Shown here: positions 2,535 to 17,545 of the stretch, piece by piece
Layout: each line of letters opens with the position of its first letter
Numbering within the stretch: the first letter of the stretch is position 1
Position numbers and translations under genes: made by a program
The notes under the pieces: model-generated
Database searches by the model: none
The model's input: the letters and a program-made list of their open reading frames with translations, nothing else
What the model was told of the DNA's origin: nothing
Assembly: GCA_023475265.1 (NCBI GenBank)
Contig: JAMCWE010000164.1
Coordinates: 1 to 62,318 of the forward strand
From: Bacteroidota bacterium
GTDB taxonomy: Bacteria > Bacteroidota > Ignavibacteria > Ignavibacteriales > Ignavibacteriaceae
DNA: 62,318 bases
Direction: 5' to 3'

Positions 2535-4247
2535 GTGAGATCCACTTTGAAATTAAATAAAATTTTTAAAAGTGTTTGCTTTGAAAATAAAATTGACCTT
2601 CAAATAAATAAATTTTTAATCTGCATTATTTTCCCATTATTTGCTTCTAGCTGCGCTGCCTCAGGAAATATAAATCAAATTTATATTAGAGCAAATCAAG
2701 TAGGTTATCTTCCTAATGATTTGAAAACAGCAGTGGTTTTTTCAGAAAATCCTATAACCGATCTAAAATTTGAAGTTAAAAATCTAACTAACAATAAAAC
2801 AGTATTTAACGACAACTTGAAAAAATCAAAACTTTCTTACAGCAAATTTAAATATTGCTATTACGCAGATTTTTCAAATCTAACAGCTCAAGGTAATTAT
2901 AAAATTGAAGTTGACGGAACTAATTCATATCCATTAAAAATAGGAAAGAATCTGTATAATAAAGTTGTAGATTCTTTAATGCTTTTTTTTAGAGAACAAA
3001 GATGCGGCCCGACAAATCCAATTTTACATAAACCATGTCACCTTTCCGATGTTGTTAGATTAATTGGAGATGAAGGACATAAAGGCGGAGTAGATTTAAC
3101 AGGCGGCTGGCATGATGCTGGTGATTATATTAAGTTTCTCTCTACTGCCGCTTACACAACTTACATGCTGATGTTTTCATATGAGTTTGATAAATCCAAA
3201 TTTAATTTTGATGAAGACAAAGACGGCATACCGGATGTGCTGGAAGAAGCAAAGGTTGGCTTAGATTGGCTTTTAAGATGCAATTATTCCAAATATAAGC
3301 TGGTAACACAGGTTATGGATTTAAGGGACCATGAAGTTGGATGGAGATTGCCTGAAAACGATACTCTTCAATATGATCGTCCGGGGTTTGTTGGGATGGG
3401 AAAAAATCAGATCGGAATATTTGCCGCTACTATGGCTTTAGCATCGCGGGTGTGGTCGGAAAGATTTAAGAAATATGACTTTGCAAAACAATGTTTAGAT
3501 GCCGCTGAAAATTTATATTCAATTCGAGATCAAGTTCCGAATATTGATACAAGCGGAACCGGTATGTATCGTGATAATACTTTTTGGGGAAAGCTTGCGC
3601 TTAGTGCAGTTGAACTTTATCTCACTACTAATCAACAAAAATATTTAACCGATGCTGTTACTTATGCGGATAGTGCCGGTTCTGATTATTGGTGGAGTTA
3701 TGGAAATATAAATTCATTGGCAGATTATAGATTAGGAAAAATTTATCCAAGATTTTCAAAATATATTTTGAATAATCTGATTAGCTTCAATTTGAATAAA
3801 GATTCCTCTGCATTTAATGTGGGACTTGCCTATAGCTGGGGAACAACAAATGCTTTATTAGGAGTATCGCTTCAAGCAATTCTTTATAAAAATTTGACCG
3901 GCAGCAGTGCATATGATTCATTAGCTCTGGATCAAAGAGATTATGTGCTTGGGAGAAATCCATGGGGATTAAGTTTTATTTATAATATAGGCACAGATTT
4001 TCCGAAACATTTGCATTCTCAAGTAGCGTATTTTCATGGCGGATATTTGCCTGGCGCTTTAACTGCTGGACCAGCACCTGAATATATTCTAAGTCAATAT
4101 CAAATGAAAAGAGAAAATCATAAGTATGATTTTTTTAATTCGGAAACTGTAAAATATTATGATGATCGATGGGATTATATAACTAATGAACCGACAATTA
4201 CCGGGAATGCAACTGCATTATTTGTTTACGGATATTATTCTCACTGA
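2535..4247 (+). CDS. Glycoside hydrolase family 9 lipoprotein (endoglucanase type)
   Basis: Inverting beta-glycanase of family GH9. Residues about 48-140 form the Ig-like CelD_N domain (RANQVGYLP), followed by the alpha/alpha-barrel catalytic domain to the C-terminus. The catalytic DAGD motif is at 194-197 (GGWHDAGDY) and the proton donor is most likely Glu552 (TNEPTITGNA). The substrate-binding segments LGRNPWG and the HSQVAYFHGG region are also recognisable. The N-terminus is long for a signal, but Cys40 follows a hydrophobic segment (LFASSC), so this is probably an outer-membrane lipoprotein; the GTG start at 2535 may therefore be too far upstream. It lies just before a polysaccharide-synthase locus, and glycanases often accompany such loci, but beta-1,4-glucan as substrate is inference. 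Confidence 0.88.
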   Translation: MRSTLKLNKIFKSVCFENKIDLQINKFLICIIFPLFASSCAASGNINQIYIRANQVGYLPNDLKTAVVFSENPITDLKFEVKNLTNNKTVFNDNLKKSKLSYSKFKYCYYADFSNLTAQGNYKIEVDGTNSYPLKIGKNLYNKVVDSLMLFFREQRCGPTNPILHKPCHLSDVVRLIGDEGHKGGVDLTGGWHDAGDYIKFLSTAAYTTYMLMFSYEFDKSKFNFDEDKDGIPDVLEEAKVGLDWLLRCNYSKYKLVTQVMDLRDHEVGWRLPENDTLQYDRPGFVGMGKNQIGIFAATMALASRVWSERFKKYDFAKQCLDAAENLYSIRDQVPNIDTSGTGMYRDNTFWGKLALSAVELYLTTNQQKYLTDAVTYADSAGSDYWWSYGNINSLADYRLGKIYPRFSKYILNNLISFNLNKDSSAFNVGLAYSWGTTNALLGVSLQAILYKNLTGSSAYDSLALDQRDYVLGRNPWGLSFIYNIGTDFPKHLHSQVAYFHGGYLPGALTAGPAPEYILSQYQMKRENHKYDFFNSETVKYYDDRWDYITNEPTITGNATALFVYGYYSH

Positions 4248-4437
4248 AAAAAAATTCAAATATTAGAATTTCAATTAAAAAAGCGTTTTGTAGCATTCTA
4301 ATACAATAATTCCTTGTTGTCTCTCTTTAAATCAATTTGCCTGATGAAATTATATGCAATTTAGCAATTCTGCATACTATTATTCGGCATAATATTTGGA
4401 AAATTTAAAAAAATTATGATAAGGTTGTTTGAAAGAA

Positions 4438-5694
4438 ATGAAAAAGAAAATACAATTAGTCCAATCGGGTTTATCTCTTGTTGATAATGCTTGGGGCGGA
4501 TTTTACAGAGGCGGAACCTATTTATTAATAGGCCCGAGAAAATCCGGCAGGACGTTGGTTGGATTACAATATGCTCTGGAATGTGCAAGCCAAAAGGAAG
4601 TTTGCTTGTATTTTACAAGTATGCGTCCAAAAGATTTGATGATTCAAGCAGCTTCAATAGATTTTGATTTACAACATTACATGAATCAAAACCTTATTAT
4701 TGTTGTAAGAGTGGCTCCTCCTTCGGACCTTTATGAAGTTGGCAATCCTGATGATTTTTTAGTAGAATATTTAAATGATATTGTAACAGTTGTAGAGCAA
4801 TATCAGCCAAACAAAATTGTATTTGATGAATTAACACCTTTCATTGGATTTAATAATATAAATCTTCTTCAGGATGTTTTTGTTCAAACTATTGAATCGA
4901 TTGAAGAAAACGCAATAACAAGTTTATTTATTCTTGGCGATCCGGCAACATCACTTGCTAATTCAATTGTTGATGCAATGGCTACTTATTCAACCGGAAT
5001 TATTTATCTGCAAAAAAGTGAAGACGATTCAAATCAAACTCAAAACGGAGTAATGACAATTACTCCTAACATTGGTCATACCGAAGGAAGATTTAAAGCG
5101 AATTATTATATTGAACCGTATAGAGGTATTATTGTGGATTTTCAAAAACCACAAACAAAACCACAAACAAAACCGCAATATAATCATGAAAGGATAAATC
5201 CTGCTGAATCAAAATATAAATCGCTTGCAGAAATTGATTTACCGGTTGAAAATATTTCTTTTTCTAATTTCTATTCCTTAAATGATTTTTATTTGATATT
5301 GAATAATCAAATAGCATTATTTAAAAGTACCGGCCAGGTATTTACAATTCTTTCATTTAAACTTGAACAAGCAGCAGAAAAATTAGGGCTTTTAACTATA
5401 ACACAATTACAAAGTTCAATTAGATTAGCATGCGACCGGAAAGATAAAATATGTGTATTGAGCAATAAAGTAATTATTTTGGTTACCAAAGATGATCCAA
5501 AAACAATAATGAATTTAATTGCAAAAGTAAAAGCAAACCTTCCAAACAACGATCCGAACTATTTAAAGAATGTTATTCCATACATATCTGTATTCACTGT
5601 AAAAGTAGATGAAAGTATTCAAAACGCAGAAGATATTTTTCAGCAGATAACATCTGACGTAGAAATAGAAAAGAATAAATTAGGATTCTATTAG
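4438..5694 (+). CDS. KaiC/RecA-like ATPase fold with C-terminal GGDEF-like degenerate domain
   Basis: Residues 10-240 (numbered from the upstream TTG at 4429) match the KaiC/RadA-like P-loop fold: GPRKSGRT at 35-42 is a Walker A with arginine in the usual lysine position, and KIVFDE at 129-134 is a Walker B. Residues about 280-415 have the alternating pattern of a nucleotide-cyclase fold (ALFKSTGQVFTILSFKL, later a hairpin region where GGDEF would lie that reads LSNKV), so a dead GGDEF domain is my best guess. No membrane segment or signal is seen. Stop and next start are 11 bases apart, making an operon with the TPR/barrel gene. A regulator of polysaccharide export is plausible, but no function is established. 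TTG 4429 is an alternative start. Confidence 0.6.
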   Translation: MKKKIQLVQSGLSLVDNAWGGFYRGGTYLLIGPRKSGRTLVGLQYALECASQKEVCLYFTSMRPKDLMIQAASIDFDLQHYMNQNLIIVVRVAPPSDLYEVGNPDDFLVEYLNDIVTVVEQYQPNKIVFDELTPFIGFNNINLLQDVFVQTIESIEENAITSLFILGDPATSLANSIVDAMATYSTGIIYLQKSEDDSNQTQNGVMTITPNIGHTEGRFKANYYIEPYRGIIVDFQKPQTKPQTKPQYNHERINPAESKYKSLAEIDLPVENISFSNFYSLNDFYLILNNQIALFKSTGQVFTILSFKLEQAAEKLGLLTITQLQSSIRLACDRKDKICVLSNKVIILVTKDDPKTIMNLIAKVKANLPNNDPNYLKNVIPYISVFTVKVDESIQNAEDIFQQITSDVEIEKNKLGFY

Positions 5695-5705
5695 CAGATA
5701 TTTTT

Positions 5706-8576
5706 ATGAATAAAATAACTTTAATCTTTTTTATTCTCATTGCCGTATTCTTCTATTCATCAAATCTAAGATCACAATCAATTGCCGATGCAATGAAGCA
5801 GGAAGCTTTACAGGAAATGAGCGTTGGCAGATTCGGTGAAGCAATAGATTTATTGAATAGATATATTTCTGCGCATCCCCAACAAGCCGATGGATATAAT
5901 TTGCGCGGTGAATGTTATGAAAAAAGGCAGCAGTTTGAAAACTCTGTTTATGATTACAGATCAGCAAGAAAACTGGAGCCAAATAACAAAGAAATAAATG
6001 CTAATCTTGCCAGAGCTACAAGCACCTGGTACTCTCTTTTATATAATGATATCGAAGGTTATAAAAGAGAAATCGCAATAAACCCAAATAATCCTGAAAA
6101 TTACCTGTCAATCGGTAAAGCATATAAAAATTTAGGTCAGTGGCCGGTTGCAGAAGAATGGTATGATAAATATTTAACAATGACTCATGCTTCACCGGAT
6201 GAGATTATTCGTTATTCTGAAATTTTAGCAAAGAATAATCATATCGCAAAAGGCTGGCCAATATTGAAGAGATATACAGAAGAATATCCAAATGATCAGC
6301 GGTTGTGGTCACGATTTGGATATTTTTCTTTATGGTTAGGAAAAACTCATATTGCAATTCAAGCTTTTGAAAGCGCCCTCGCCTTGAAACCATACTTCAA
6401 AGAAGCAATGGATGGATTAGATGAAGCAAGAGGTAAAGGTTATGTTTATACTGTTAATGATACTTCATATAAATATTTTAATTATGGATTGCCTCCTGCA
6501 AGGGCGAAGTTTGTTTATCCGATTGATAAATATTACCGGATAGTAAAAAAAGTTCCTAATGATAATGACACAAGATTTCGTTTATTAAAAGCATTAATAG
6601 AAGCAAATAGATTTGAAGAAGCTTCACAACAAATTCAATATTTGCAAAACGCTAAATATGATTCATCAGAAGTTGCTGCTATTTCTAACCAGGTCGATTC
6701 ATTAAGTAATGTTATTTATAAAGAAAAAGTAATAACATACAAAGCAAAACTTGCTGCCGATTCTACAGATAAAGATGCCGTGGAAAATCTTGGATTATAT
6801 TACTCTCGATTACAGGATTATGATACTGCTATAGCAGTGTATTCAAGCTATCTAAATAAATATCCAAATGATACTGATATTCTTTTTAGGTATGTTCAAG
6901 CGCAAGCTGATAATCGGGATTATTTTAAAGCTCAAGATAAATTACAAATATTATTAAAAAAGGATCCTCAGAATCTAAAGTATCAATTGTTTATGGGTGA
7001 ACTTGATGTTTGGACAGGTCAAAATCTTGACGATGCAAAAAATTATTTAACTAATGTTTTAAATAAGGAACCGGACAATATTGCTGGACTTATTGCGATG
7101 AGTTCGCTGAGTATGCGAAATAATAATTTTGTTGATGCAGAAAATTATATGGACAAAATCAAAACTTTAAATCCTGGTAGTTCTGATCTTAAGAGCCTTC
7201 AGGCAGCGATGACAATGAATAAATTCAGATATCAGCAGGAACAAAATTATGCACTGCTTAGTCAAGCAGAAACACTTTATGGAGAACATAATTGCCAGGA
7301 TGCTTTACCTTTATATGAAGAATTCTTAGCAAGTTCCGCACAAAATAATTTGATTGAAAAAGAATATGCCGATGTGAATGTGTGTGCAGGCAATTATCAA
7401 AAAGCAATTGATATTTATGCAGACTTGTTAAATCAAGGTTATGATTTTAATATCGATGTTGCAAGAGCGACGGCATATTTTGTAATGGGAGATTCTGTAA
7501 ATGCTCTTGCAAATTTCCAAAGATTAGCGAAAGACAGCTCCGATAATTTTAATGTTAATTTATATTTGGGTGATTCTTATTTCAGAATGCATGAATATAG
7601 CAAAGCTGAAGATGTTTATGATAACATGAAAGAAAAAATGAAATTAGATTCCTCGCAAGTTGCAATGATCGATCAAAGGTATAACTGGATGCCAGTTACC
7701 GGTTTTAGAGGATTCTTAAATACATTTCCTACATATACGTTAGTAACACCATATGGTTCGTATTATGCTGATAATCTTGGAATAAAAAATAGCATTCAAG
7801 GTTTACGTATTGATCTTGGAATTACTTCTTTCTTTTCAGTTGGTGCCGAAGCATTTAGAACAACTTTAGCTTCGGATTTAGCTCAAGTTAATACTAATAC
7901 TCTACGGTGGGATTTAACATTCAGATTAGCTGAAGCTCTAACCTTTGGAGTAAATTTTGGAAATACATATTACAGTAATACATACTCACAACCTGTTGCT
8001 GATGTTTACGCCAGATCTGAAGTTCCAAATAAATATGCGATTTATGGATCTTATTCGAAATTAGATGCCTCTCAATTAATTTTTTCTCCTTATTTAATTG
8101 CTTTAAGAATAGATGCAAATACATTCAGAGCAGGCGGATATTATCAGTTTAAATCCGGATTGAAAACTTCTATTGATTATTCTTACATGAGTTTTTCCGA
8201 TGGAAATATTGGGAATACTTTAGCATTTAGAATTGGAAAATATTTCTATCCTGATTTCCTTTTTGGTTACGAATATTATGGATCAGGTTTCCGGAAAACT
8301 TCAATCGTTTATTTTTCACCTTCAAGTTATTCTTCCCACAACATAACTGCTGACTGGGATGTTATTAAAGATTCTACTTCCACAGTTACTATCGGCGGCT
8401 TAATTGGATTTGTTTCAAACACAAATTTTATACTTAGGCAAGCTTACGGTATTGCAACTTTTAGATTAGCCGATCGTTTTACACTTCAAGGTAGAATTAG
8501 CGGCGGCAGCAGCTTACAAAATTATGTCGGTTATAGCTCGTGGACTATTGGTTTAACAGCTTACTGGTCACTATAA
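5706..8576 (+). CDS. TPR protein with C-terminal outer-membrane beta-barrel (YaiO/PgaA-like exopolysaccharide porin)
   Basis: The signal peptide covers residues 1-25 (MNKITLIFFILIAVFFYSS). Residues about 30-680 are a long array of tetratricopeptide repeats (units such as EALQEMSVGRFGEAIDLL, NPENYLSIGKAYKNLGQW and DALPLYEEFL). From about residue 690 to the C-terminus the sequence alternates aromatic beta-strands ending in WTIGLTAYWSL, typical of a YaiO-type barrel with a terminal aromatic-hydrophobic residue pattern. A periplasmic TPR scaffold plus barrel is the design of PgaA, BcsC and AlgK/AlgE, which carry nascent polysaccharide across the outer membrane. It sits between the KaiC-like gene and a processive GT2, supporting the same role here. 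The barrel assignment is by pattern only. Confidence 0.72.
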   Translation: MNKITLIFFILIAVFFYSSNLRSQSIADAMKQEALQEMSVGRFGEAIDLLNRYISAHPQQADGYNLRGECYEKRQQFENSVYDYRSARKLEPNNKEINANLARATSTWYSLLYNDIEGYKREIAINPNNPENYLSIGKAYKNLGQWPVAEEWYDKYLTMTHASPDEIIRYSEILAKNNHIAKGWPILKRYTEEYPNDQRLWSRFGYFSLWLGKTHIAIQAFESALALKPYFKEAMDGLDEARGKGYVYTVNDTSYKYFNYGLPPARAKFVYPIDKYYRIVKKVPNDNDTRFRLLKALIEANRFEEASQQIQYLQNAKYDSSEVAAISNQVDSLSNVIYKEKVITYKAKLAADSTDKDAVENLGLYYSRLQDYDTAIAVYSSYLNKYPNDTDILFRYVQAQADNRDYFKAQDKLQILLKKDPQNLKYQLFMGELDVWTGQNLDDAKNYLTNVLNKEPDNIAGLIAMSSLSMRNNNFVDAENYMDKIKTLNPGSSDLKSLQAAMTMNKFRYQQEQNYALLSQAETLYGEHNCQDALPLYEEFLASSAQNNLIEKEYADVNVCAGNYQKAIDIYADLLNQGYDFNIDVARATAYFVMGDSVNALANFQRLAKDSSDNFNVNLYLGDSYFRMHEYSKAEDVYDNMKEKMKLDSSQVAMIDQRYNWMPVTGFRGFLNTFPTYTLVTPYGSYYADNLGIKNSIQGLRIDLGITSFFSVGAEAFRTTLASDLAQVNTNTLRWDLTFRLAEALTFGVNFGNTYYSNTYSQPVADVYARSEVPNKYAIYGSYSKLDASQLIFSPYLIALRIDANTFRAGGYYQFKSGLKTSIDYSYMSFSDGNIGNTLAFRIGKYFYPDFLFGYEYYGSGFRKTSIVYFSPSSYSSHNITADWDVIKDSTSTVTIGGLIGFVSNTNFILRQAYGIATFRLADRFTLQGRISGGSSLQNYVGYSSWTIGLTAYWSL

Positions 8577-8989
8577 TCTAAAGATCGTAAAACATTCCAC
8601 ACTAACCAGACAAAAAATATCTTATTCATTAAAATGATTAATTGCATTTAGTTCACCTAATTTAAGATTTTGTGAGCTAATACAATTTAATATTATAAAA
8701 TGATATTTAAATTACTCTATAGTTTTAGTTGAATGATTATAATAATCATCAACTACATTAAAACTATTTGACAATTTCTATTTTTATAAGATTTACTTTT
8801 AACCTCAATCATTTAACACTTTCGTAATTTATAAAATTTTAACCTTGGTTTAATTTGATACAGGCCAAAAACAAAATCTTAATCTGTGACAAGATCGAAT
8901 GTTAATACAGCTAAAAGTAATTGGTAAAATAATGATTTACGTGGCATCATAATTGAAGTTTTGTTAAGAAAAATTATAATAAATGACTA
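8577..8989. other. Intergenic region with long imperfect dyad
   Basis: The 413 bases between the porin gene and the GT2 gene hold no convincing ORF. The main structure is the dyad at 8719-8767, described separately. Immediately after it, TTGACA at about 8768 precedes an AT-rich stretch that could serve as a promoter for the downstream synthase gene, but promoter consensus in this lineage is not established and I do not call one. Confidence 0.5.
8719..8767. promoter_or_regulatory. Long imperfect palindrome upstream of GT2 synthase gene
   Basis: The core ATGATTATAATAATCAT (8733-8749) is a perfect palindrome. It extends outward as TAGTTG/CAACTA with one bulged A, and further as ATAGTTTTA (8719-8727) against TAAAACTAT (8759-8767). 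It lacks a T-tract immediately after the stem, so it is less likely to be a simple terminator and could be an operator or an mRNA structure in front of the synthase gene. Confidence 0.45.
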
Positions 8990-10393
8990 ATGGAACTAAA
9001 TCAAGAAATAAAACGTTTGGCAATTGTTCTCGAAAACCGCGAACCAAATCAAACTGATGTTGACAAACCAAAAAGATATTTACGGAGAATTTTAATTAAT
9101 GGAATAATCTCTGTTCTTTTAATCTTGATTATAATTTATACTCTTCCACTTACGGTATTATCAGTTAAATCTCTATTCGAATATGCAACAATTGTCGCTC
9201 TAGTAATTTTCTTATTCGTATTGTTGTTCAGATATTTTGCAATTCTTTTACTGGCTTACCTTTACATAAATCAATATACTTACACAGCGCCGTTAGGAGG
9301 TTATTTTCCATTTGTTTCGATTTTAGTCCCGGTATTTAATGAAGAAAAAGTAGTTGCTGATTCTATAAAATCTCTGCTCAATCTTAATTATCCGAATTAT
9401 GAAATCATAGTAATTAATGACGGTTCTTCTGATCGCACAAAAGAAGTTGCAGAAACTTTGGTTGGATATCAAAAAGGTAAATTTTCTGATGTGAAAGTTT
9501 CTTTAATAAATAAACCGAATGGAGGAAAAGCAAAAGCTTTAAATGCCGGCATAAAGCTTTCAAAAGCTGAAATCGTTTTATGCATGGATGGTGATTCGCA
9601 GCTTTCTCCGGATTCTGTTAAACTTGCAGTTAGACATTTTTCAAACAGAGAGATTGGGGCTGTTGCGGGTAATGTTAAAGTTTTAAATAGAGGGAAATTA
9701 TTTACAGATCTTCAAGCGCTAGAATATATTGAAGGTCTAAACATGGCGAGAAGCGCTCAGAGTTATGTAAGATTAGTAAATATAATTCCTGGCCCTATTG
9801 GTTTCTTTAGAAAAAAAGCTATTGAAGAAGCTGGTTTTTATTCAAGTGATACTTTTGCTGAAGATGCAGATCTTACTCTTAAAATACTTGCAAACGGCTG
9901 GAAGATTTATTATGAACCGAATTCAATTTCATATACAGAAGCCCCTACAAAACTTCAGCAGCTTCTAAAACAAAGATACCGATGGACTAGAGGGATACTC
10001 CAGTCAATTAGAAAACACAGAAAGCTAATGGTTAATCCAAGTATTAATTTCGGAGATACTTTTATTCTTTGGACAATGTTTTATGAAGCTTTAATATGGC
10101 CGGCAATGAATATTGCAGCTAACTTGTTTTTCATAATTGCTGCGTTGGCATTTGGTTTTTCTTCTCTAATATTTTTCTGGTGGGCAGGTTTAGCGCTTTT
10201 AGATTTGGTAACTGCTCTTTATTGTATTGCAGTTGAAAAAGAAGAATTTAGACTAGTTGGTTATTCAATAATTTATAGAATGTTTTTTATTCTTATAATC
10301 GATATTTGTAAAGCGATGTCTACAATCGAAGAATTCCTTGGTATTAGAATGACCTGGGGAAAACTCGAAAGAGTAGGCACAGCTAAAGCGTAG
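8990..10393 (+). CDS. Processive family 2 glycosyltransferase (PgaC/IcaA/cellulose-synthase type)
   Basis: Inner-membrane polysaccharide synthase of family GT2. Two membrane spans (about 34-57 and 63-95) precede the cytosolic catalytic domain, with three or four more spans after residue 355. The donor-binding and catalytic signature is complete: NDGSSD (Asp144), DGD at 200-202, AEDAD (291-294, equivalent to the TED base) and QRYRW at 328-332 for the acceptor channel. Complete D,D,D,QxxRW motifs indicate a processive beta-glycan synthase such as those making poly-N-acetylglucosamine or cellulose-like polymers. No PilZ domain is fused. Together with the TPR/barrel gene upstream and the deacetylase-fold gene downstream it forms a synthase-dependent secretion locus; the sugar made is unknown. 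Confidence 0.88.
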   Translation: MELNQEIKRLAIVLENREPNQTDVDKPKRYLRRILINGIISVLLILIIIYTLPLTVLSVKSLFEYATIVALVIFLFVLLFRYFAILLLAYLYINQYTYTAPLGGYFPFVSILVPVFNEEKVVADSIKSLLNLNYPNYEIIVINDGSSDRTKEVAETLVGYQKGKFSDVKVSLINKPNGGKAKALNAGIKLSKAEIVLCMDGDSQLSPDSVKLAVRHFSNREIGAVAGNVKVLNRGKLFTDLQALEYIEGLNMARSAQSYVRLVNIIPGPIGFFRKKAIEEAGFYSSDTFAEDADLTLKILANGWKIYYEPNSISYTEAPTKLQQLLKQRYRWTRGILQSIRKHRKLMVNPSINFGDTFILWTMFYEALIWPAMNIAANLFFIIAALAFGFSSLIFFWWAGLALLDLVTALYCIAVEKEEFRLVGYSIIYRMFFILIIDICKAMSTIEEFLGIRMTWGKLERVGTAKA

Positions 10394-10425
10394 ATTTTAA
10401 AATTTAATTACTCAAGAGGTCACTT

Positions 10426-10944
10426 ATGGAACTGATTCCTATTTTGTCAACAATAATTCTGGTTGCTACGATCAGTACTTTTTTACTAGCAATCGGAGCT
10501 TATGTTCTCTATAAAGTTAGAGAAAGAAAGGGGCAAATAGCGGTTGCACCTCAACCATCTGAAGTAAAAGCTGAATTAGTTACACCGGCTTCTGCGCCAG
10601 CCGTTATGCCATCAGATAAGCAGAGAGCTGTTCCACAACAAGCTTATATTGATAGACAGCCTATAATTATTCAGCAGCAAGCACCACAAGGCCAGGCGCC
10701 GATGCAGCAGCAAAGACCTCAACCTTATTCAGTTTATGGCCAAGCTTACGGCTCACGTACGCCGCAGCCAAAGCAATTTTCTCAGTCTACATATAATCAG
10801 CAAAAAAGTTATCAAGGACCAGGAACGGGAAATAATAGAACTGAAGAAAGATTAGGCCGGGATGCAAAATTTATGAAATATACTGAAGAAGGTTATGTAT
10901 CGACTAAAGATGATAAAGAATCTGGAGCCTTAAAGTGGCGATAA
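10426..10944 (+). CDS. Small single-span membrane protein with Gln/Pro-rich tail
   Basis: Unknown protein. One transmembrane segment at about 5-30 (IPILSTIILVATISTFLLAIGAYVLY) is followed by a basic stretch and a low-complexity region rich in Gln, Pro and Ala from about 40 to 130 (repeated QQQ and PQ clusters), then a short ordered C-terminus (EERLGRDAKFMKYTEEGYVS). It begins 32 bases after the synthase gene with AAGAGG upstream and overlaps the next gene by 10 bases, so it is part of the same operon. A small accessory or linker subunit of the synthase complex is a reasonable inference; no homology is recognised. Confidence 0.65.
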   Translation: MELIPILSTIILVATISTFLLAIGAYVLYKVRERKGQIAVAPQPSEVKAELVTPASAPAVMPSDKQRAVPQQAYIDRQPIIIQQQAPQGQAPMQQQRPQPYSVYGQAYGSRTPQPKQFSQSTYNQQKSYQGPGTGNNRTEERLGRDAKFMKYTEEGYVSTKDDKESGALKWR

Positions 10945-12833
10945 CAACAAAAAAGCGTGGCGGTGTAAACCAAGCTTTAATTGTTTTGAGCGGAATAACG
11001 ATCCTTGTCGGATCAATTTTAATTTATTTATATATCCTGCGCGGTGTATTTGGAAGATTCAATGCTGCCGAATTACTACCGAATACAAAAATAATAAAGG
11101 AAGCTCTTTATGGTGAAAAACCTACAATAGGAATTCTTTATTCAAAATATACCGAGAACATGCTTCCTGTCGGAAGTACTTGGTTAAATGATAATGTCTC
11201 TACCTGGAAAAAATTTCTATCTAATTCGAATTTTAATTATGATGTAATCGCCGATTCTACAATTGAACTTGGAATGGCAAACAAATATAAGCTGTTAATT
11301 CTTCCCGGATCTAAATCACTTAGCGATAAAGAAATTATGCAGCTTAAAAAATATATTAATAATGGGGGAAGCGTTTTTGCTACAAGCGGAACCGCATCAT
11401 ATTCAAATGATGGTAAGTGGAGAGGCTGGGATTTCTTCTCTGAAGTTTTCGGTTTAAAATTCAGTAAAGAAATTTCACCTTCTGAATTTACTAAGATTCA
11501 TACCCTTCGCGGCGGACTTCCAATTACTGCAAATATTCCGGCTGGGTATCCTCTGAGAGTAGCTACGTGGGATCGTCCCATGTCAGTAGAAGTTTTAGAT
11601 CCCCGGACTGTTCAAGCTAGTTTTTGGTATAACTACAGACTTCAAGATGGATTAACAAGAGATCAAATTAAAAAGAGCGCCGGTATTGTTTATGGAACTT
11701 ATGGCGCTGGCCGATTTGTTTGGATGGGATTTGAAATTAGCTCAGTTATTGGAGCTCAAGAAGATTATATCTATTTCGATAGATTATTTAATAATTGTAT
11801 GAATTGGTTATCGTATAATCCAATTGCTTTTGTTCGAGATTGGCCGGCAAATTATAACGCTGCGGCAGTTATTGTTCCTACTTTATCAAAAGATATTAAT
11901 AACATAAATAATCTTCTTAGAATTTTGAATTCCGAAAAAGTTCCGGCAACATTCTTCGTCGATCCAACACAAGCTGAATTAAATAAAGGAGTAATTAAAC
12001 CGCTGGTTAGATATGGAGAAATCGGTTCGTTGGTTGATATCGGATACTTAACATCAGTAAGCGACACCATAAATAAACTAAATGATTTTGACACACAGAA
12101 AGATAAATTAAGCAATGCTAAAACTTCTTTAGAAACTATTTCCGGTTCCAAGGTACTTGGTTGTATGCCATATTATGGAATTTATGATCAAAATACTATT
12201 CAAGCTTTAATCCAATCAAAGTATAAATATATTTTTACGGATTCTCTAACTGACAGATCAGTTCCCAAAACTATAATAAGAGGAGATAGTCTGCTTGTGT
12301 CAATGTCAAAAACCGGACGGGATGATTACGAAGTTATTAGAGATTTCGGTTTGACTGATCCAAATTTTCAATTCTATACTTACCAAGAAGATTTAGATAG
12401 AATATTATTTGAAGGCGGATTGTATTCATTAAAATTGCATACTGATTATCAATGCAAACCTGAAAATATTGGAGTTGTAAAAAAAGTAATTGAAGATCTT
12501 AAAAGAAAAGGTTTTTGGATTACTACTTTATCCCAAGTTGAAAACTGGTGGGCACGAAGAAATTATGTAGAGGTGCGAGTTAATAAACGCGGCGACACAA
12601 GAATTTCTTTAACAATTTCTAATCCGGGTAAACAAATAGTAAATGATTTAGTTATTCAATTGGATATGAGTGAAGCTGCAAAAAATATAAGTCTTAGCGC
12701 AGAAATTATCGGAACAAAGATCGCCAAATACCGATATGATAAAAACGCTCACATTATTTATGTCTATATAAATGACTTATTGCCAGATGAATCTCGTACA
12801 TATTATTTTGATTATTTTAAACCGAGCACTTAA
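10935..12833 (+). CDS. Membrane-anchored GATase-like / NodB-like (apparently inactive polysaccharide deacetylase) protein
   Basis: A membrane span near the N-terminus (about 14-36) is followed by a class I glutamine-amidotransferase-like domain at about 55-290 (ILPGSKSLSDKEI, then NNGGSVFATSG) without an obvious catalytic Cys. A NodB-like barrel lies at about 305-535 and an Ig-like beta domain closes the protein at about 540-632. The NodB fold is recognisable by VPATFFVDP, MPYYG, SLKLHTD and GFWITTLSQV, but motif 1 (usually TFDD) reads VPTLSKD and motif 2 (usually HxxxH) reads GEIGSLVDIGY, so the metal ligands are missing. Active PgaB-type enzymes deacetylate secreted glycan; this one may only bind it. 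The start is a GTG inside the end of the preceding gene, a 10-base overlap. Confidence 0.7.
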   Translation: MAITTKKRGGVNQALIVLSGITILVGSILIYLYILRGVFGRFNAAELLPNTKIIKEALYGEKPTIGILYSKYTENMLPVGSTWLNDNVSTWKKFLSNSNFNYDVIADSTIELGMANKYKLLILPGSKSLSDKEIMQLKKYINNGGSVFATSGTASYSNDGKWRGWDFFSEVFGLKFSKEISPSEFTKIHTLRGGLPITANIPAGYPLRVATWDRPMSVEVLDPRTVQASFWYNYRLQDGLTRDQIKKSAGIVYGTYGAGRFVWMGFEISSVIGAQEDYIYFDRLFNNCMNWLSYNPIAFVRDWPANYNAAAVIVPTLSKDINNINNLLRILNSEKVPATFFVDPTQAELNKGVIKPLVRYGEIGSLVDIGYLTSVSDTINKLNDFDTQKDKLSNAKTSLETISGSKVLGCMPYYGIYDQNTIQALIQSKYKYIFTDSLTDRSVPKTIIRGDSLLVSMSKTGRDDYEVIRDFGLTDPNFQFYTYQEDLDRILFEGGLYSLKLHTDYQCKPENIGVVKKVIEDLKRKGFWITTLSQVENWWARRNYVEVRVNKRGDTRISLTISNPGKQIVNDLVIQLDMSEAAKNISLSAEIIGTKIAKYRYDKNAHIIYVYINDLLPDESRTYYFDYFKPST

Positions 12834-13151
12834 TACTTATTTATATGGTTGGAAGAAAAACGGGATAAAAATCCAAATAAAAAATCACTGATGAAAATTG
12901 GATAATAAAAACACAATAATTAGATTCTTTATCACACTAACAAACGGAAATATCTTAGCTTGGTAAAAGATTTGAAACAAAAATTACCAAACTAAATTCC
13001 AGAGATAAAATGAAACCTAAAAAAATATTATCTGATTTGATTTTTCTTAGCCTTCAAGAATTTTCACCAAAATTATTTTCCAAATACGTTGATTCAAGAA
13101 AAGTAATTTTTATGACTAATTATTTTTGCTAATTGTAGATCTCTAAATTTT
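12834..13151. other. Intergenic region with inverted repeat
   Basis: No gene is called in these 318 bases. A dyad TTAGCTTGGTAA (12955-12966) and TTACCAAACTAA (12984-12995) with one mismatch is present. A 40-codon frame at 13010-13132 (MKPKKILSDL at its start) has no recognisable family and no good ribosome binding site, so I leave it uncalled. Confidence 0.4.
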
Positions 13152-14138
13152 ATGAAGAAACAGATACTTATACAGTTTATAATTTTTTCAACTGCAATTA
13201 TTTACTTTACAGGATGTACCGATTTATTCTTAAATCCTTCGTCAAGTAATAGCGGAACAAACAACCTAAAAATAAATATTAATAGCCCTGTTTCTAATGA
13301 TACAATAAATTATTCAAATACAAATATTAGTTATGATATTACACAAGATGTTGGAATAAATTTTATTGAACTTTATGTTAACGGAACAATATATAAATGG
13401 AACCCACCCAATACAGATGGCTCTAAACCGGTGATCCCGCTTTCTTTTGATTCAACTTATCTTAATAAAAGAATTAGCTATTATCTAATTTATTATGATA
13501 AAGATGGCTTTTCAGCACGCAGTGATACGATGAATAATATTTTAATTTCAGATATAAAATATCCGCCTTCGGCACCATATTCTTTTACATTTTTAAGATT
13601 GTCTAGCACAGCAATTAATTTATCATGGAAAGATTCCATAATTGCCAATCCTCCCGGTTATGAAATTTGGAGAAAAAGAGGATTCTATGGTGACTTTGTA
13701 ATTCAACTTGTTTCTGGGCCGAATACAAATAATATTAATGATGAAAATGCTGCCGATACTACAGTTTATTATTATAAAATCCGCAGCATAAATACAATAG
13801 GAACATCTTCCTTTAGCAGCATAATTAATACTTATGGTGATGGTGCTGCACATTCAATTGCACCGCCAACCGGATTAACAGCAGCTGCTTCAAGTTCAAC
13901 TAAAGTAGTGCTTACATGGACTGATGATATTTCCGTTGAAAATTATTTTAAAATAGAAAGAAGATATCCTTGGTCATCATATGTTGGTATTGGAATCGTA
14001 AATCGTGGTACTACACAATTTGTTGATAGCGCAAATGGACTTACGCCATCTACTGGTTACTATTATAGGATTAAAGCGTATTCAAGCAGCGATTCTTCAT
14101 GGTCTAATGAGGTATATGTACAAACGCCTTGGCAATAA
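13152..14138 (+). CDS. Lipoprotein with Ig-like and two fibronectin type III domains
   Basis: Signal peptide II with the lipid-accepting Cys22 (YFTGC). After a Ser/Asn-rich linker, residues about 40-130 form a bacterial Ig-like domain (INSPVSNDTINYSNTNISYDI). Two fibronectin type III repeats follow at about 137-225 (PPSAPYSFTFLRLSSTAINLSW) and 234-328 (APPTGLTAAASSSTKVVLTW). Such lipoproteins are surface or periplasmic adhesion and carbohydrate-binding modules. It follows the polysaccharide locus and precedes the hybrid sensor protein, so a role at the surface polymer is plausible but unproven. Start and signal are unambiguous. Confidence 0.75.
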   Translation: MKKQILIQFIIFSTAIIYFTGCTDLFLNPSSSNSGTNNLKININSPVSNDTINYSNTNISYDITQDVGINFIELYVNGTIYKWNPPNTDGSKPVIPLSFDSTYLNKRISYYLIYYDKDGFSARSDTMNNILISDIKYPPSAPYSFTFLRLSSTAINLSWKDSIIANPPGYEIWRKRGFYGDFVIQLVSGPNTNNINDENAADTTVYYYKIRSINTIGTSSFSSIINTYGDGAAHSIAPPTGLTAAASSSTKVVLTWTDDISVENYFKIERRYPWSSYVGIGIVNRGTTQFVDSANGLTPSTGYYYRIKAYSSSDSSWSNEVYVQTPWQ

Positions 14139-14206: not shown

Positions 14207-17200
14207 TTGTGGTTCATTTTGAATTCATCACATAAATTAAATAAAATTCTTTTCGATTCGTTAAATTATAACATTACTGATTCATTCATAGTAATAGATC
14301 ATAATGGCGATGTGCTTTCACTGAACCATAAAGCTGAAACTTTCTTGGGAGTTTCAGAAAAGGTGAAAAATATTTCCAGCATTTTTGAAGAACAATCATT
14401 AATCAAATTAAATGATTTAATTGAAGAAGTGTTTGTTAATAATTCTCCCGTCGTCCAGAATATCCAGCTAGTTTTGAAAAATAAATCTGAGTTAAACACT
14501 CAAATAATTATTAACTCTTATAAGGAAGAAGATGAACTTTTCATTTTCTGTACCTTTAGGCAGCAAGAATATAAACTTAATTTTAAGGGATTATCTAATC
14601 TAAAAGTTCAATCAAATAATTTTGAAGATATTGTTACTAATAAATCGATAATTAAAGAGATTGAAAAAATAAAATCTTTTTATCCATTTACATTTATCGG
14701 GAAAGAAAAAATATCGAAAGAAGTCAATCAATTTGATGAGCTTTTTTGGATAAAAGATATTAACGGAATTTATATTCTAGTTAACAGCAAGCTTGCTTCA
14801 AGCCTAGCCCTTAAGCCTTCTCAAGTTGAAGGAAAACAATATCAATCATTCCTGCCTCCATATCAAGTTGATTTTTGTTCAGCTATTGAAAAATATATTA
14901 AGGATACCGTAAATTGTGTAGTCATGGAAGGGATTCCTTTTGTTGGAATAAGTGACCCGGATAAATTTCAAACAATTGAAATTCCGTTAAGTGATTCTGA
15001 TAATAATGTTATTGCTATAATTGGAATTGCTCAAAAAATAGAAAAGAAAATTGAAAATGAACAATTCGATGTTTTCTATAATTCTTCAATTAATTTAATT
15101 GAAAATTTTGACAAAGCTCTTGCGTTTATTGATACAAAAGGAATGATAAAGCATGGAAGTAAAGAATTTTGTAAATTGTTTTCGGAAGAAATTATAGATT
15201 TAAGAAATTATCCTTATGAAAAAGTATTCCCATTAAAAATAACTGAGCGAATACAGCAATTTTTAAGCTCTTCAAATGTCTCTGAAAAATTTGAAACTAC
15301 AATAGAAAGAGTATCAAGCAAAAAAATAGAAGAGAGCTTTAATTTTTATTTAAATAAAATTCTCGATGAGAAAAACACGAATGAAGGTTTTTCAATTTTA
15401 ATTGAAGAAACTATAAATGAAGATAACTTAGAAAAATTAATTAACAATAGAGGAAGAATGTTTGAAATTTTAATTCAAAATAATCCTGAACCTATTTTTA
15501 TTTATGATACTGAAAATCTGAGGTTCATTGAAGTTAATGATTCTGCATTAGCTCTTTACGGATATCGAAAGGATGAATTCCTTCAGATGGATCTTACTGA
15601 TCTTTATTCACCTGAAGATATTCAAACATTGTTAGATTCTTCTAATCTTTCCGCGCGAATGGGAAAATTTAACGGGCCATTCAAGCACAAGAAAAAAGAT
15701 GGCGCTTATGTCTATGTGGAAATAAGTAAAATTGGTTTTAAGTATAATGAAAAGGATGCTCATTTTAATATAATTAGGGATGTTACAAATCAATTAGAAC
15801 TGAATAGAAAAAATCAACTTTTTAAAACTGCTTTTGATAACACAAATGATCTTCTTTTTGTTACCGATAATGTTGGACTTATTACTTTTAGTAATCAATC
15901 AGTTAAGCAGCTATTGGGATATCAAAAAAGTGAAATAGAAAATTCTTCCTTTACAGCCCTGGTAAAAAATGATGATCGAGGAACTATCAACTCTTCAATA
16001 TTCCAATCTCATTTAAAAGATTCCGTAACCATATTAACAGAATTAAAGAAATCCGACGGTAAATTTGTTGATGTTGAAATAAACGCTTCACCAATTTTAA
16101 ATTATAAAGGTGATGTCGATTCTTTCAGCATACTTTGTAAAATAGAGAAAAAAGCGGAAGAAGCCGGCGAAGAAAAAATTAAAGAAGTAATTAGGGAAGT
16201 TGTAGTAGAAAAAACTTCACAAGGCGAAGTATCAAATGTAAATATTCCGGACCTGAATTTATTACCAAACTTGTTCCATGAATTATTAACACCTATAAAT
16301 GTAATTCTAGGTTTTGTTCAAGAATTATCAGGAGATATTAAAAATCCGACTTCCGAACAAAAAGAAGCGGCAGATATTATTAATCAAAACCGTGACCGTC
16401 TTCTGAATATTATGAATTCGGTAATTGAATATTCCAACATAAAACAAAATAACTATGAGCTTGTTCCGCAAGAAATTGGAATTACCGAAGTAATAGATCA
16501 GCTGCATAATGATTTTAATGATATTTCGAATGCACGTGATATGGAATTTGCTTATGGAAAAATATCTTCTTCATTAAAATTTGAATCCGACAAACATAAG
16601 TTTCAAGCTTTGATTTCCCTTCTTTTGAAGATTGCTATTCATCTTGATAAAGAAAAGAAAATTTATTTTTCAGCATATCAATCTGACGACGAATATTTCG
16701 TTATCTCTATGAAAGATAATTATTCTACTATTTCTAAGAACATGCTGAATAACTTTAAAACAATTTTTGAAACTGAAAATGATTCTATAGCAAAAGATTT
16801 TGGAATTTCACGACTTTCGATACTTTTGGCAAAAACTCTTTTAAAATTACTTAATGGCAGATTTGAAATAAACGAAATAGACAAAAATAAATTTGACTGT
16901 GGCTTTATCTTCTCAATAAGTTTTGCAAAGGTGATTGAATCTAAAAAAGAAATTGAAGAAACTAAAATTGAGGAAAAGCCTTCAGCAAGCGAGCCTGTTG
17001 AAGAATTTAATGCAACTGTTCAAGAAGAATTTACGCCGGTAGATCGCAAAATGCTGCATGAGCTTGAACCAGCTCCTGCCGAAGAGGAACCGGAAGAAAA
17101 AATTGAAGAAACTCCTCCTGAAATTATTAAAGCCAAACCTTTAGAAAAAACTTTTGATAAGCTGCCTCTATCTTCGTTTACTTGTCTTTATATTGAAGAT

Positions 17201-17545
17201 CAGATTGATTCGCAAATTCTCTTTAAAGTTCAAATGAAAGAGCTTAAAGAAATAAAATTTGCAGTTAGCTTTGAAGAAGCTTTGCCTCTGCTGGATAGCT
17301 GCCATTTCGATTTCATCGTCATGGATATAAACCTCCAGGGCGAGTACAACGGCCTAGATGCATTAAGAATTATTCATAAAATGCCTGGCTATGAAAATAT
17401 TCCAATCGTTGCTGTTACAGCTTACGTTCTGCCCGGTGATAAAGAAAAATTTATTGCTGCTGGCTTCAATGATTTTATCTCCAAGCCGATCTTCCGCGAA
17501 AAGATGATCGATTCTTTGGAGAAGATCTTTTTGCTTCATGTTTAA
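14207..17545 (+). CDS. Multi-PAS hybrid histidine-kinase-like protein with degenerate ATPase domain and C-terminal receiver
   Basis: Soluble 1,112-residue signalling protein with no membrane span. PAS-like domains lie at about 12-110, 175-275, 295-400, 424-535 and 540-650. A HisKA dimerisation helix carries His691 (FHELLTPIN). The ATPase region at about 795-920 keeps the overall pattern (DFGISRLSILLAKTLLKLLNG) but lacks the N-box asparagine (it reads SLLLKIAIH) and the G1 DxGxG (it reads KDNYSTIS). An acidic linker precedes a receiver at about 982-1110 with phosphoacceptor Asp1040 (VMDINL) and SKPI lysine. Autophosphorylation is doubtful, so it may be a phosphotransfer or sensory scaffold. 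The receiver is similar to that of the stand-alone regulator at 2155. The TTG start at 14207 is uncertain; TTG 14219 is an alternative. Confidence 0.75.
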   Translation: MWFILNSSHKLNKILFDSLNYNITDSFIVIDHNGDVLSLNHKAETFLGVSEKVKNISSIFEEQSLIKLNDLIEEVFVNNSPVVQNIQLVLKNKSELNTQIIINSYKEEDELFIFCTFRQQEYKLNFKGLSNLKVQSNNFEDIVTNKSIIKEIEKIKSFYPFTFIGKEKISKEVNQFDELFWIKDINGIYILVNSKLASSLALKPSQVEGKQYQSFLPPYQVDFCSAIEKYIKDTVNCVVMEGIPFVGISDPDKFQTIEIPLSDSDNNVIAIIGIAQKIEKKIENEQFDVFYNSSINLIENFDKALAFIDTKGMIKHGSKEFCKLFSEEIIDLRNYPYEKVFPLKITERIQQFLSSSNVSEKFETTIERVSSKKIEESFNFYLNKILDEKNTNEGFSILIEETINEDNLEKLINNRGRMFEILIQNNPEPIFIYDTENLRFIEVNDSALALYGYRKDEFLQMDLTDLYSPEDIQTLLDSSNLSARMGKFNGPFKHKKKDGAYVYVEISKIGFKYNEKDAHFNIIRDVTNQLELNRKNQLFKTAFDNTNDLLFVTDNVGLITFSNQSVKQLLGYQKSEIENSSFTALVKNDDRGTINSSIFQSHLKDSVTILTELKKSDGKFVDVEINASPILNYKGDVDSFSILCKIEKKAEEAGEEKIKEVIREVVVEKTSQGEVSNVNIPDLNLLPNLFHELLTPINVILGFVQELSGDIKNPTSEQKEAADIINQNRDRLLNIMNSVIEYSNIKQNNYELVPQEIGITEVIDQLHNDFNDISNARDMEFAYGKISSSLKFESDKHKFQALISLLLKIAIHLDKEKKIYFSAYQSDDEYFVISMKDNYSTISKNMLNNFKTIFETENDSIAKDFGISRLSILLAKTLLKLLNGRFEINEIDKNKFDCGFIFSISFAKVIESKKEIEETKIEEKPSASEPVEEFNATVQEEFTPVDRKMLHELEPAPAEEEPEEKIEETPPEIIKAKPLEKTFDKLPLSSFTCLYIEDQIDSQILFKVQMKELKEIKFAVSFEEALPLLDSCHFDFIVMDINLQGEYNGLDALRIIHKMPGYENIPIVAVTAYVLPGDKEKFIAAGFNDFISKPIFREKMIDSLEKIFLLHV

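Follow-up and report, generated by a model that had tools for sequence, protein, structure and literature searches.

The window analysed here is the whole of a 62,318-nucleotide stretch of contig JAMCWE010000164.1, from a Bacteroidota bacterium of the family Ignavibacteriaceae (assembly GCA_023475265.1, a draft genome of 4.77 Mb in 270 contigs). It carries a block of genes that very probably encodes a synthase-dependent exopolysaccharide secretion machine. The core of the block is five genes, for a KaiC-like protein, an outer-membrane porin with tetratricopeptide repeats (TPR-OMP), a family 2 glycosyltransferase (GT2), a small membrane protein and a NodB-like protein. These genes, their principal domains and their flanking genes are laid out as follows, where AF2 denotes AlphaFold2 and TM a transmembrane segment:

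2535-4247, forward strand: GH9 glycanase with a CelD_N Ig domain (Pfam GH9, 5.4e-80; CelD_N, 1.8e-20)
4438-5694, forward strand: KaiC-like protein, from an ATG start with an alternative TTG at 4429 (Pfam KaiC, E=1.8e-19)
4438-5151, forward strand: RecA/KaiC-fold domain of that protein, residues 1-238 (VIA-align to KaiC 7s65_B)
5278-5652, forward strand: putative GGDEF-like domain of the same protein, residues 281-405 (AF2 secondary structure)
5706-8576, forward strand: TPR periplasmic scaffold and outer-membrane exopolysaccharide porin, TPR-OMP (many Pfam TPR models)
7737-8570, forward strand: predicted 16-strand beta-barrel of TPR-OMP (AF2 model)
8990-10393, forward strand: GT2 processive synthase, PgaC/IcaA-like (Pfam GT2, E=6.6e-32)
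10426-10944, forward strand: small membrane protein with one TM helix, a Gln/Pro-rich linker and a conserved tail (from sequence)
10867-10896, forward strand: tail motif of the small protein, KFMKYTEEGY in the window (family consensus KFMKYTSEGY)
10935-12833, forward strand: NodB-like putative pseudo-deacetylase, membrane-anchored (Pfam CE4, E=5.4e-6, 26.8 bits, gathering score 23.1)
13152-14138, forward strand: FN3/Big_7 lipoprotein (Pfam fn3, 1.9e-8; lipobox FTGC by reading the sequence)
14207-17545, forward strand: PAS hybrid histidine kinase, a constant neighbour in Ignavibacteriales (Pfam PAS, HisKA and Response_reg)

A first-pass annotation of this DNA had described the core genes as contiguous, co-directional and mostly overlapping or closely spaced. 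The open reading frames are where that annotation put them and contiguity and strand hold, but the spacing is less uniform than claimed: 11 bp separate the KaiC-like and TPR-OMP genes and 32 bp the GT2 and small genes, and the small gene overlaps the NodB-like gene by 10 bp, while the gaps between TPR-OMP and GT2 (413 bp) and between the NodB-like and FN3 genes (318 bp) are wide. Profile searches of the products upheld its KaiC, TPR, GT2, CE4, GH9 and fn3 domain calls, including the GH9 glycanase and FN3 lipoprotein placed at the two sides. Its KaiC/RecA-fold protein, proposed as an extra component, is likewise present, and the small Gln/Pro-rich membrane protein stands with the amendment of a conserved tail and a BcsF-like layout.

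Conservation of the five genes is far above chance. A NodB-like profile search, from which the best 80 of 122 relatives were kept, has Ignavibacteriales, Ignavibacteriaceae, Melioribacteraceae and Stygiobacter electus among its matches, and we infer that the order to which the relatives belong is Ignavibacteriales. From a sample of 59 relatives' genomes, 54 loci around the NodB-like gene were fetched, and each count takes only those loci whose fetched stretch reaches the gene in question; two of the 54 (L080 and L083) end before GT2 and the small gene. GT2 lies on the strand of the NodB-like gene in 52/52 loci, as does the small gene, with TPR-OMP in place in 47/49 and the KaiC-like gene in 43/45. 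Gene order is the same across the 54 loci, and every tested neighbour pair is on the same strand. The GH9 gene (39/43), the FN3 gene (49/52) and the PAS hybrid kinase gene (48/48) are part of the conserved block within Ignavibacteriales. At the level of genomes, the NodB-like protein and the KaiC-like protein (E<=1e-30) are each found in 55 of the 59 relatives. Both are present in 54 and neither in three, which belong to separate genera (G013, G029 and G035); the KaiC-like protein occurs without its partner in G025, and the NodB-like protein alone in G003, a fragmented assembly in which the locus runs off the contig.

The two covered loci that miss KaiC and TPR-OMP are from one genus (G040 and G042), and both genomes have the GH9-KaiC-TPR-OMP block on a different contig from the NodB locus, which suggests that the system comprises two modules joined at the 413 bp gap between porin and synthase. 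The same gap holds an extra gene in 14 of 47 loci, encoding 390-465 residues (L040:10183-11580, L051:8139-9425, L062:7844-9070 and 11 more loci). The three gap genes that were scanned all match the SGNH/GDSL family, and two score above the family's cut-off, which hints that some species modify the polymer with acyl groups. In the G017 locus the first TPR porin is followed by another TPR protein, 957 residues long (L067:11075-13948).

Among 197 genomes sampled from the class, strong NodB-like matches are found in 33 of 35 order members and in one outsider, G167; among 392 sampled from the phylum, longer relatives occur in 13 genomes of other families. Six of these distant loci were read. Four (L245, L247, L249 and L250) carry the KaiC-like, TPR-OMP, GT2, small and NodB-like genes in the same order; in L246 the contig end falls within GT2, and neither KaiC nor TPR-OMP was detected in L248. 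Co-occurrence of the five genes in other genomes, which the first-pass annotation had left to be checked, is thus found in many relatives and in full in four distant loci out of six. No GH9 or FN3 gene was detected in any of the six, and since the five genes are kept without them, the core of the system is the five genes and not the flanks.

The synthase is PgaC-class by its sequence and bears a processive signature. Its best NCBIfam model is PgaC_IcaA at 200 bits, under the cut-off of 422, and it is 29% identical to Escherichia coli PgaC over 340 residues (162 bits), against 23% identity and 64 bits for BcsA. The full D,D,D,QxxRW set named in the first-pass annotation is present: NDGS, DGDS, EDAD and QxxRW are all kept in 10 aligned diverse GT2 sequences, and the four motifs occur as exact strings in 48/52 loci. 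Three more loci have one variant motif, and in the remaining one (L084) GT2 is a 6-residue fragment and was scored as a miss.

Fold prediction likewise supports the expectation that the TPR protein ends in an outer-membrane barrel. In the AF2 model the barrel region (residues 645-956) has 16 predicted strands and a mean predicted local distance difference test score (pLDDT) of 91. By VIA-align Z-score its best match is PgaA (4y25; Z 26.0, root-mean-square deviation (rmsd) 3.0, 271 aligned), with PelB (9h80) at Z 23.6 (rmsd 3.9, 270 aligned) and BcsC (9b8a) at Z 23.2 (rmsd 4.3, 278 aligned). The top five Z-scores belong to PgaA, PelB and three BcsC entries, and the next porin, OmpG, follows at Z 17.5. 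Ordering by Foldseek E-value puts PgaA at rank 1, BcsC at rank 3 and PelB at rank 6, and the same group appears again at rank 26, with other porins between. Sequence comparison contributes little to this assignment. TPR-OMP scores 77.5 bits against the NCBIfam PgaA model (cut-off 366.65), with the best stretch within the TPR part, and searches of PDB and Pfam with the barrel sequence, for which an alignment of 33 rows was built, gave no useful match. In Pfam scans of the 33 barrel members, Porin_4, BCSC_C and OMP_b-brl were each touched by one member, at E 0.009 to 0.35.

The NodB-like protein is predicted to consist of a TM segment, a GATase/beta-galactosidase-trimerisation-like (ThuA) domain, a CE4 domain that appears dead and a C-terminal beta domain, of which the TM segment and the beta domain were assigned by reading the sequence. 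Searched against structures, its profile matches CE4 and beta-galactosidase chains weakly (best E about 0.002). The motifs FDDG and H[ST]xx[HN], which we take to mark active CE4 deacetylases, were not found in the CE4 region of any of 54 copies (four are truncated), in keeping with the earlier call of no active deacetylase; the looser pattern H[ST]xx[HND], applied to whole proteins, has matches in L053 and L072, in both cases outside the CE4 region. Residues D368, D436-S-L, R441, R462-D-D, D486 and H502 are invariant in 24 aligned members, and these other positions suggest that a binding surface has been retained. No profile match to PgaB was obtained. The protein may be a pseudo-enzyme that guides the polymer. 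Of the six distant loci, five have a second, related NodB-like copy after the first, and second divergent copies are often seen in this position (L043:13142-14890, L249:12907-14883, L250:12681-14621); on reading, that of L249 also lacks the CE4 motifs.

The two-domain build of the KaiC-like protein was overlooked in the first-pass annotation. The AF2 model (mean pLDDT 78, predicted template modelling score 0.58) contains a RecA domain, which VIA-align matches to residues 258-481 of KaiC 7s65_B (Z 27.4, 215 aligned, rmsd 2.3), a low-confidence linker at residues 239-275 and a C-terminal domain. The rows of the VIA-align list all cover residues 2-238, so the C-terminal domain lies outside that comparison. 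Its helices (H) and strands (E) run H-E-H-H-E-E-H-H-E-H, which we take to be the order of a GGDEF domain, and its 10-residue pLDDT blocks from residue 281 to 400 range from 79 to 90. Among four distant homologues, two match Pfam GGDEF_2 in the C-terminal region (E=0.0026 and 0.00056, below cut-off) and all four have LRxxD ahead of a degenerate GGDEF stretch. On the basis of this topology, the distant RxxD and the two weak Pfam matches, a GGDEF-like identity is proposed for the C-terminal domain. A canonical I-site in the window protein was considered and rejected, as the Arg of RxxD is absent in 42/42 readable order members (one of 43 being unreadable), which at the aligned position have Asp, Ser, Glu, Ala, Asn or Thr.

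The alignment of the family holds 31 of 43 KaiC-like proteins, the window being one row and paralogues being left out. The Walker-A motif could be read in 41 of the 43 (L032 and L033 are truncated before it), and its lysine is replaced by Arg in 35, including L068, and in all four distant members. The protein is accordingly proposed to be a putative pseudo-ATPase joined to a putative pseudo-cyclase, which is the plan of BcsE minus its receiver domain. G027 and G031 have, upstream of the full-length gene, one or two extra KaiC-like genes that lack the GGDEF-like domain (L038:14716-16608, L040:15932-16774), which hints at mixed oligomers; in one of these copies the Walker motif is an intact GKT.

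The small protein has no significant Pfam or NCBIfam family match. It is conserved at its two ends, with a MELIPIL start in 51/52 and a C-terminal W[RKQ] in 52/52, while the Gln/Pro-rich middle is variable (16 rows were aligned). At least 28 of the first 34 residues are identical to the family's own consensus in 53 copies, and 23 to 27 of 34 match it in five distant loci. An initial, narrower tail pattern fitted 37/52; the present pattern occurs in 51/53, the other two tails reading KLMKVTSEGY and KFLKITSEGY. Positively charged residues follow the helix, which suggests a cytosolic tail. Two genomes indicate with what each end might pair. In G025 the closest GT2 reaches no more than 29% identity and no orthologous GT2 was found, whereas the KaiC-like, small and PAS kinase genes are kept; its small protein keeps the tail (KFLRYTPLGY) and has a helix down to 12/34. 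In G167, where GT2 is present, GH9 is also in place (L175) and the KaiC-like protein was not found, the helix scores 25/34 and the tail reads KLMQLPSDGY. The contrast suggests that the helix goes with the synthase and the tail with the KaiC-like protein, which is a lead, not proof.

The gene order, the PgaC-like GT2 and the PgaA/PelB/BcsC-type porin support the first-pass reading of a non-standard synthase-dependent exopolysaccharide secretion locus, and neither outcome that the annotation named as a refutation was observed. The best full explanation, to which a probability of roughly 55% is given, combines such a machine with control of the BcsE/BcsF type. GT2 would polymerise a beta-linked glycan in the cytoplasm and thread the chain outward, the dead CE4 protein would hold or guide it in the periplasm without deacetylation, as BcsB or PgaB would, and the TPR region would connect it to the outer-membrane pore, with GH9 trimming the polymer. 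The conserved helix of the small protein may pack against the membrane complex, and its tail may bring the KaiC-like pseudo-ATPase with its degenerate GGDEF-like domain to the synthase as a cytosolic regulator. The control part of this model is tentative, and is held at somewhat less than even odds. GH9 is probably the glucanase of the locus that trims the polymer; among copies of more than 450 residues, DAGD and the C-terminal NE motif are each found in 32/33. Because GH9 adjoins the locus, a beta-1,4 linkage is favoured, and a beta-1,4-linked glucan or glucan-like chain is the first guess for the product, with about an even chance of being right. The second guess, clearly the less probable, is a polymer of N-acetylglucosamine, with which the PgaC-like synthase is compatible.

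The locus shares features with several described systems without reproducing any of them. Like Pga/Ica, it has a PgaC-class GT2, a TPR porin whose predicted 16-strand barrel is closest to PgaA and a NodB-fold periplasmic protein; unlike Pga/Ica, its NodB-like protein lacks the active-CE4 motifs and a PgaB profile match, there is no match to E. coli PgaD in the small protein, the PgaC equivalog score is missed (200 vs 422 bits), and a KaiC-like regulator and a tail-bearing membrane protein are added. The E. coli type II Bcs system is resembled in a putative combination of RecA/NTPase-like and GGDEF-like domains in one cytosolic protein, in a one-helix partner with a tail, in the TPR barrel porin and in a glycanase, GH9 here. 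In the E. coli system that enzyme is BcsZ, a GH8 glycanase. According to PMC7439463 and PMC11470070, BcsE is a degenerate NTPase-REC-GGDEF trio, and in the latter paper BcsF has a single helix and recruits BcsE through its tail, which contributes a strand to the NTPase-like sheet of BcsE. The present locus differs in that no REC was seen, the synthase has no PilZ and no BcsE or BcsF profile match was obtained. No BcsB, BcsQ or BcsR is named among the family matches listed for the locus products, which agrees with the earlier claim of no BcsB as far as those products go, the genome not having been searched for BcsB. Likeness to Pel lies in the PelB-like barrel (Z 23.6) and in the proposed control by a degenerate GGDEF domain; the differences are that PelD is a membrane GAF-GGDEF protein and that no Pel name is among the family matches listed for the locus products, the lists for the TPR and GT2 proteins being limited to 25. 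The RecA fold is that of the KaiC clock ATPase (Z 27.4), but the protein has a single RecA domain, a Walker-A Lys that is mostly Arg and an attached GGDEF-like domain. The catalytic Glu pair of the clock ATPase was not seen in the aligned stretch.

Several results weigh against the control model. The G167 locus indicates that the KaiC-like protein is not essential to the core, and the pairing of helix with synthase and tail with KaiC has a narrow base of one genome each. In L247, where synthase and KaiC are both present, the helix is reduced to 15/34 aligned (5 ungapped) and the tail motif is missing, while the other distant tails reach at most FWEYTDEGF, 3 to 5 of 10, with KaiC present in two of three such loci. 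(L247 encodes a small protein of enlarged size, 336 residues, at 9224-10234.) A profile comparison of the small protein with BcsF gave no match. Lysine is kept in the Walker-A motif of 6/41 KaiC-like relatives, so ATP may still be bound or hydrolysed, and no REC domain was seen in the KaiC-like protein, its two domains being separated by the low-confidence linker. The C-terminal domain has no Pfam match in the window, and no GGDEF family is among the 25 of 29 families listed for a Pfam scan of 30 C-terminal domains. Since unrelated families reach E 0.002 in single members, the two GGDEF_2 matches are weak. Neither the KaiC-like family nor its C-terminal domain gave a profile match to one E. 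coli BcsE (hhalign E=0.59 and 0.34), and none was obtained between the C-terminal domain and a degenerate GAF-GAF-GGDEF protein of the order (described below); a control comparison with the unrelated NodB alignment scored at the same level. Pfam BcsE is touched by one of 31 KaiC-like members at E=0.11, which is noise level, and over the host genome only at E=0.33, at another place. It is the loss of the tail motif in L247, together with this Pfam background of the C-terminal domains, that weakens the control model.

The first rival explanation is an ordinary Pga-like system. Its KaiC-like protein would be a signalling ATPase of unrelated kind, for example one linked to the PAS kinase, that does not dock on the small protein in the manner of BcsE. 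GT2 and porin do resemble PgaC and PgaA, KaiC is near the PAS hybrid kinase in G025 too, neither BcsE nor BcsF profiles match, the Walker lysine is retained in some relatives and L247 pairs KaiC with a small protein that has no tail motif. Against it, neither an active-deacetylase motif nor a PgaD match was found; the Walker Arg (35/41, and 4/4 distant) and the GGDEF-like domain fit a pseudo-enzyme regulator, and G025 retains the tail motif beside a KaiC-like protein in a locus without the synthase. An ordinary Pga-like system is judged rather unlikely. A more novel reading is about equally unlikely as a whole: that the locus represents a separate class of secretion system within one phylum, in which a pseudo-RecA/pseudo-GGDEF protein on a BcsF-like tail would gate a PgaC-type synthase without c-di-GMP, in response to another nucleotide or partner, with the dead deacetylase as periplasmic guide.

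Exopolysaccharide synthases are usually described as activated by cyclic di-GMP (c-di-GMP), and on a second rival reading the GGDEF-like domain of this locus would be an I-site receptor in the manner of PelD or BcsE. The RxxD of the four distant homologues, and an intact GGDEF motif in one distant host (G366), are consistent with control of this kind, as is the existence of degenerate GGDEF receptors in PelD and BcsE (PMC7439463). It is nevertheless improbable here. The RxxD Arg is missing from every readable order member, and no PilZ was found in GT2 or in the host genome at E<=0.1 by a search that gives matches in E. coli and other controls, so the earlier statement that PilZ is absent holds genome-wide. 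An Rfam scan of the window returned only a tRNA and no c-di-GMP riboswitch. One GGDEF match per genome was obtained in 57/59 relatives, and 28 of the 30 GGDEF loci that were read encode one conserved protein without GG[DE]EF; 12 of 14 genomes outside the order that have a NodB-like protein have no GGDEF match. This near-absence of diguanylate cyclases and the lack of PilZ make c-di-GMP an unlikely signal, and in these bacteria the signal is probably something else. The conserved protein has a GAF-GAF-degenerate GGDEF build, and nearly every relative has a single copy (L181:1480-3336 and 27 similar loci); in the L181 copy, GAF and GGDEF Pfam matches are above their cut-offs and the GG[DE]EF motif is lost. 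The two other GGDEF loci carry, with EAL and HD-GYP assigned by eye, GRNEF and an EAL-like domain (G022) and an intact GGDEF with an HD-GYP-like domain (G011). These proteins (L183/L184) may come from foreign contigs, G022 having 8% contamination. Very improbable, finally, is a locus for glycan degradation or envelope glycosylation, with GH9 central and GT2 decorating lipids or proteins. GT2 enzymes are diverse, and M. roseus has several endoglucanase genes, with four GH9 (PMC3534657); yet the barrel is closest to polysaccharide porins, GT2 has the processive QxxRW signature and GH9 was not detected in distant loci where all five core genes are retained.

If secretion under BcsE/BcsF-like control is the correct reading, the arrangement of a pseudo-ATPase and pseudo-cyclase on a one-helix tail may extend beyond enterobacterial cellulose, and a dead deacetylase may stand in for BcsB or PgaB as polymer guide. 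Secretion machinery and a GGDEF-shaped control domain appear to persist where diguanylate cyclases are nearly gone, which raises the question of what such domains sense. Many relatives are known from metagenomes of sediments, waters and bioreactors, settings in which such a matrix would matter. No description of the locus was found in the titles and abstract openings among the matches listed for literature on KaiC, exopolysaccharide, GGDEF and Ignavibacteria, a scope outside which most subscription papers fall, and the text of PMC7112194 has no mention of Ignavibacteri, KaiC, Rhodothermus, Bacteroidetes or GH9.

Two further neighbouring genes may be recorded. The G167 locus has a GH18 enzyme with a secretion-tail domain downstream (L175:17763-19232). 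In the window, a stand-alone receiver protein lies at 2155-2523, before GH9. Among the relatives, an upstream receiver is the best match in L031 and L045 alone; in the other loci the best match is the PAS kinase's own receiver, which may mask weaker upstream copies.

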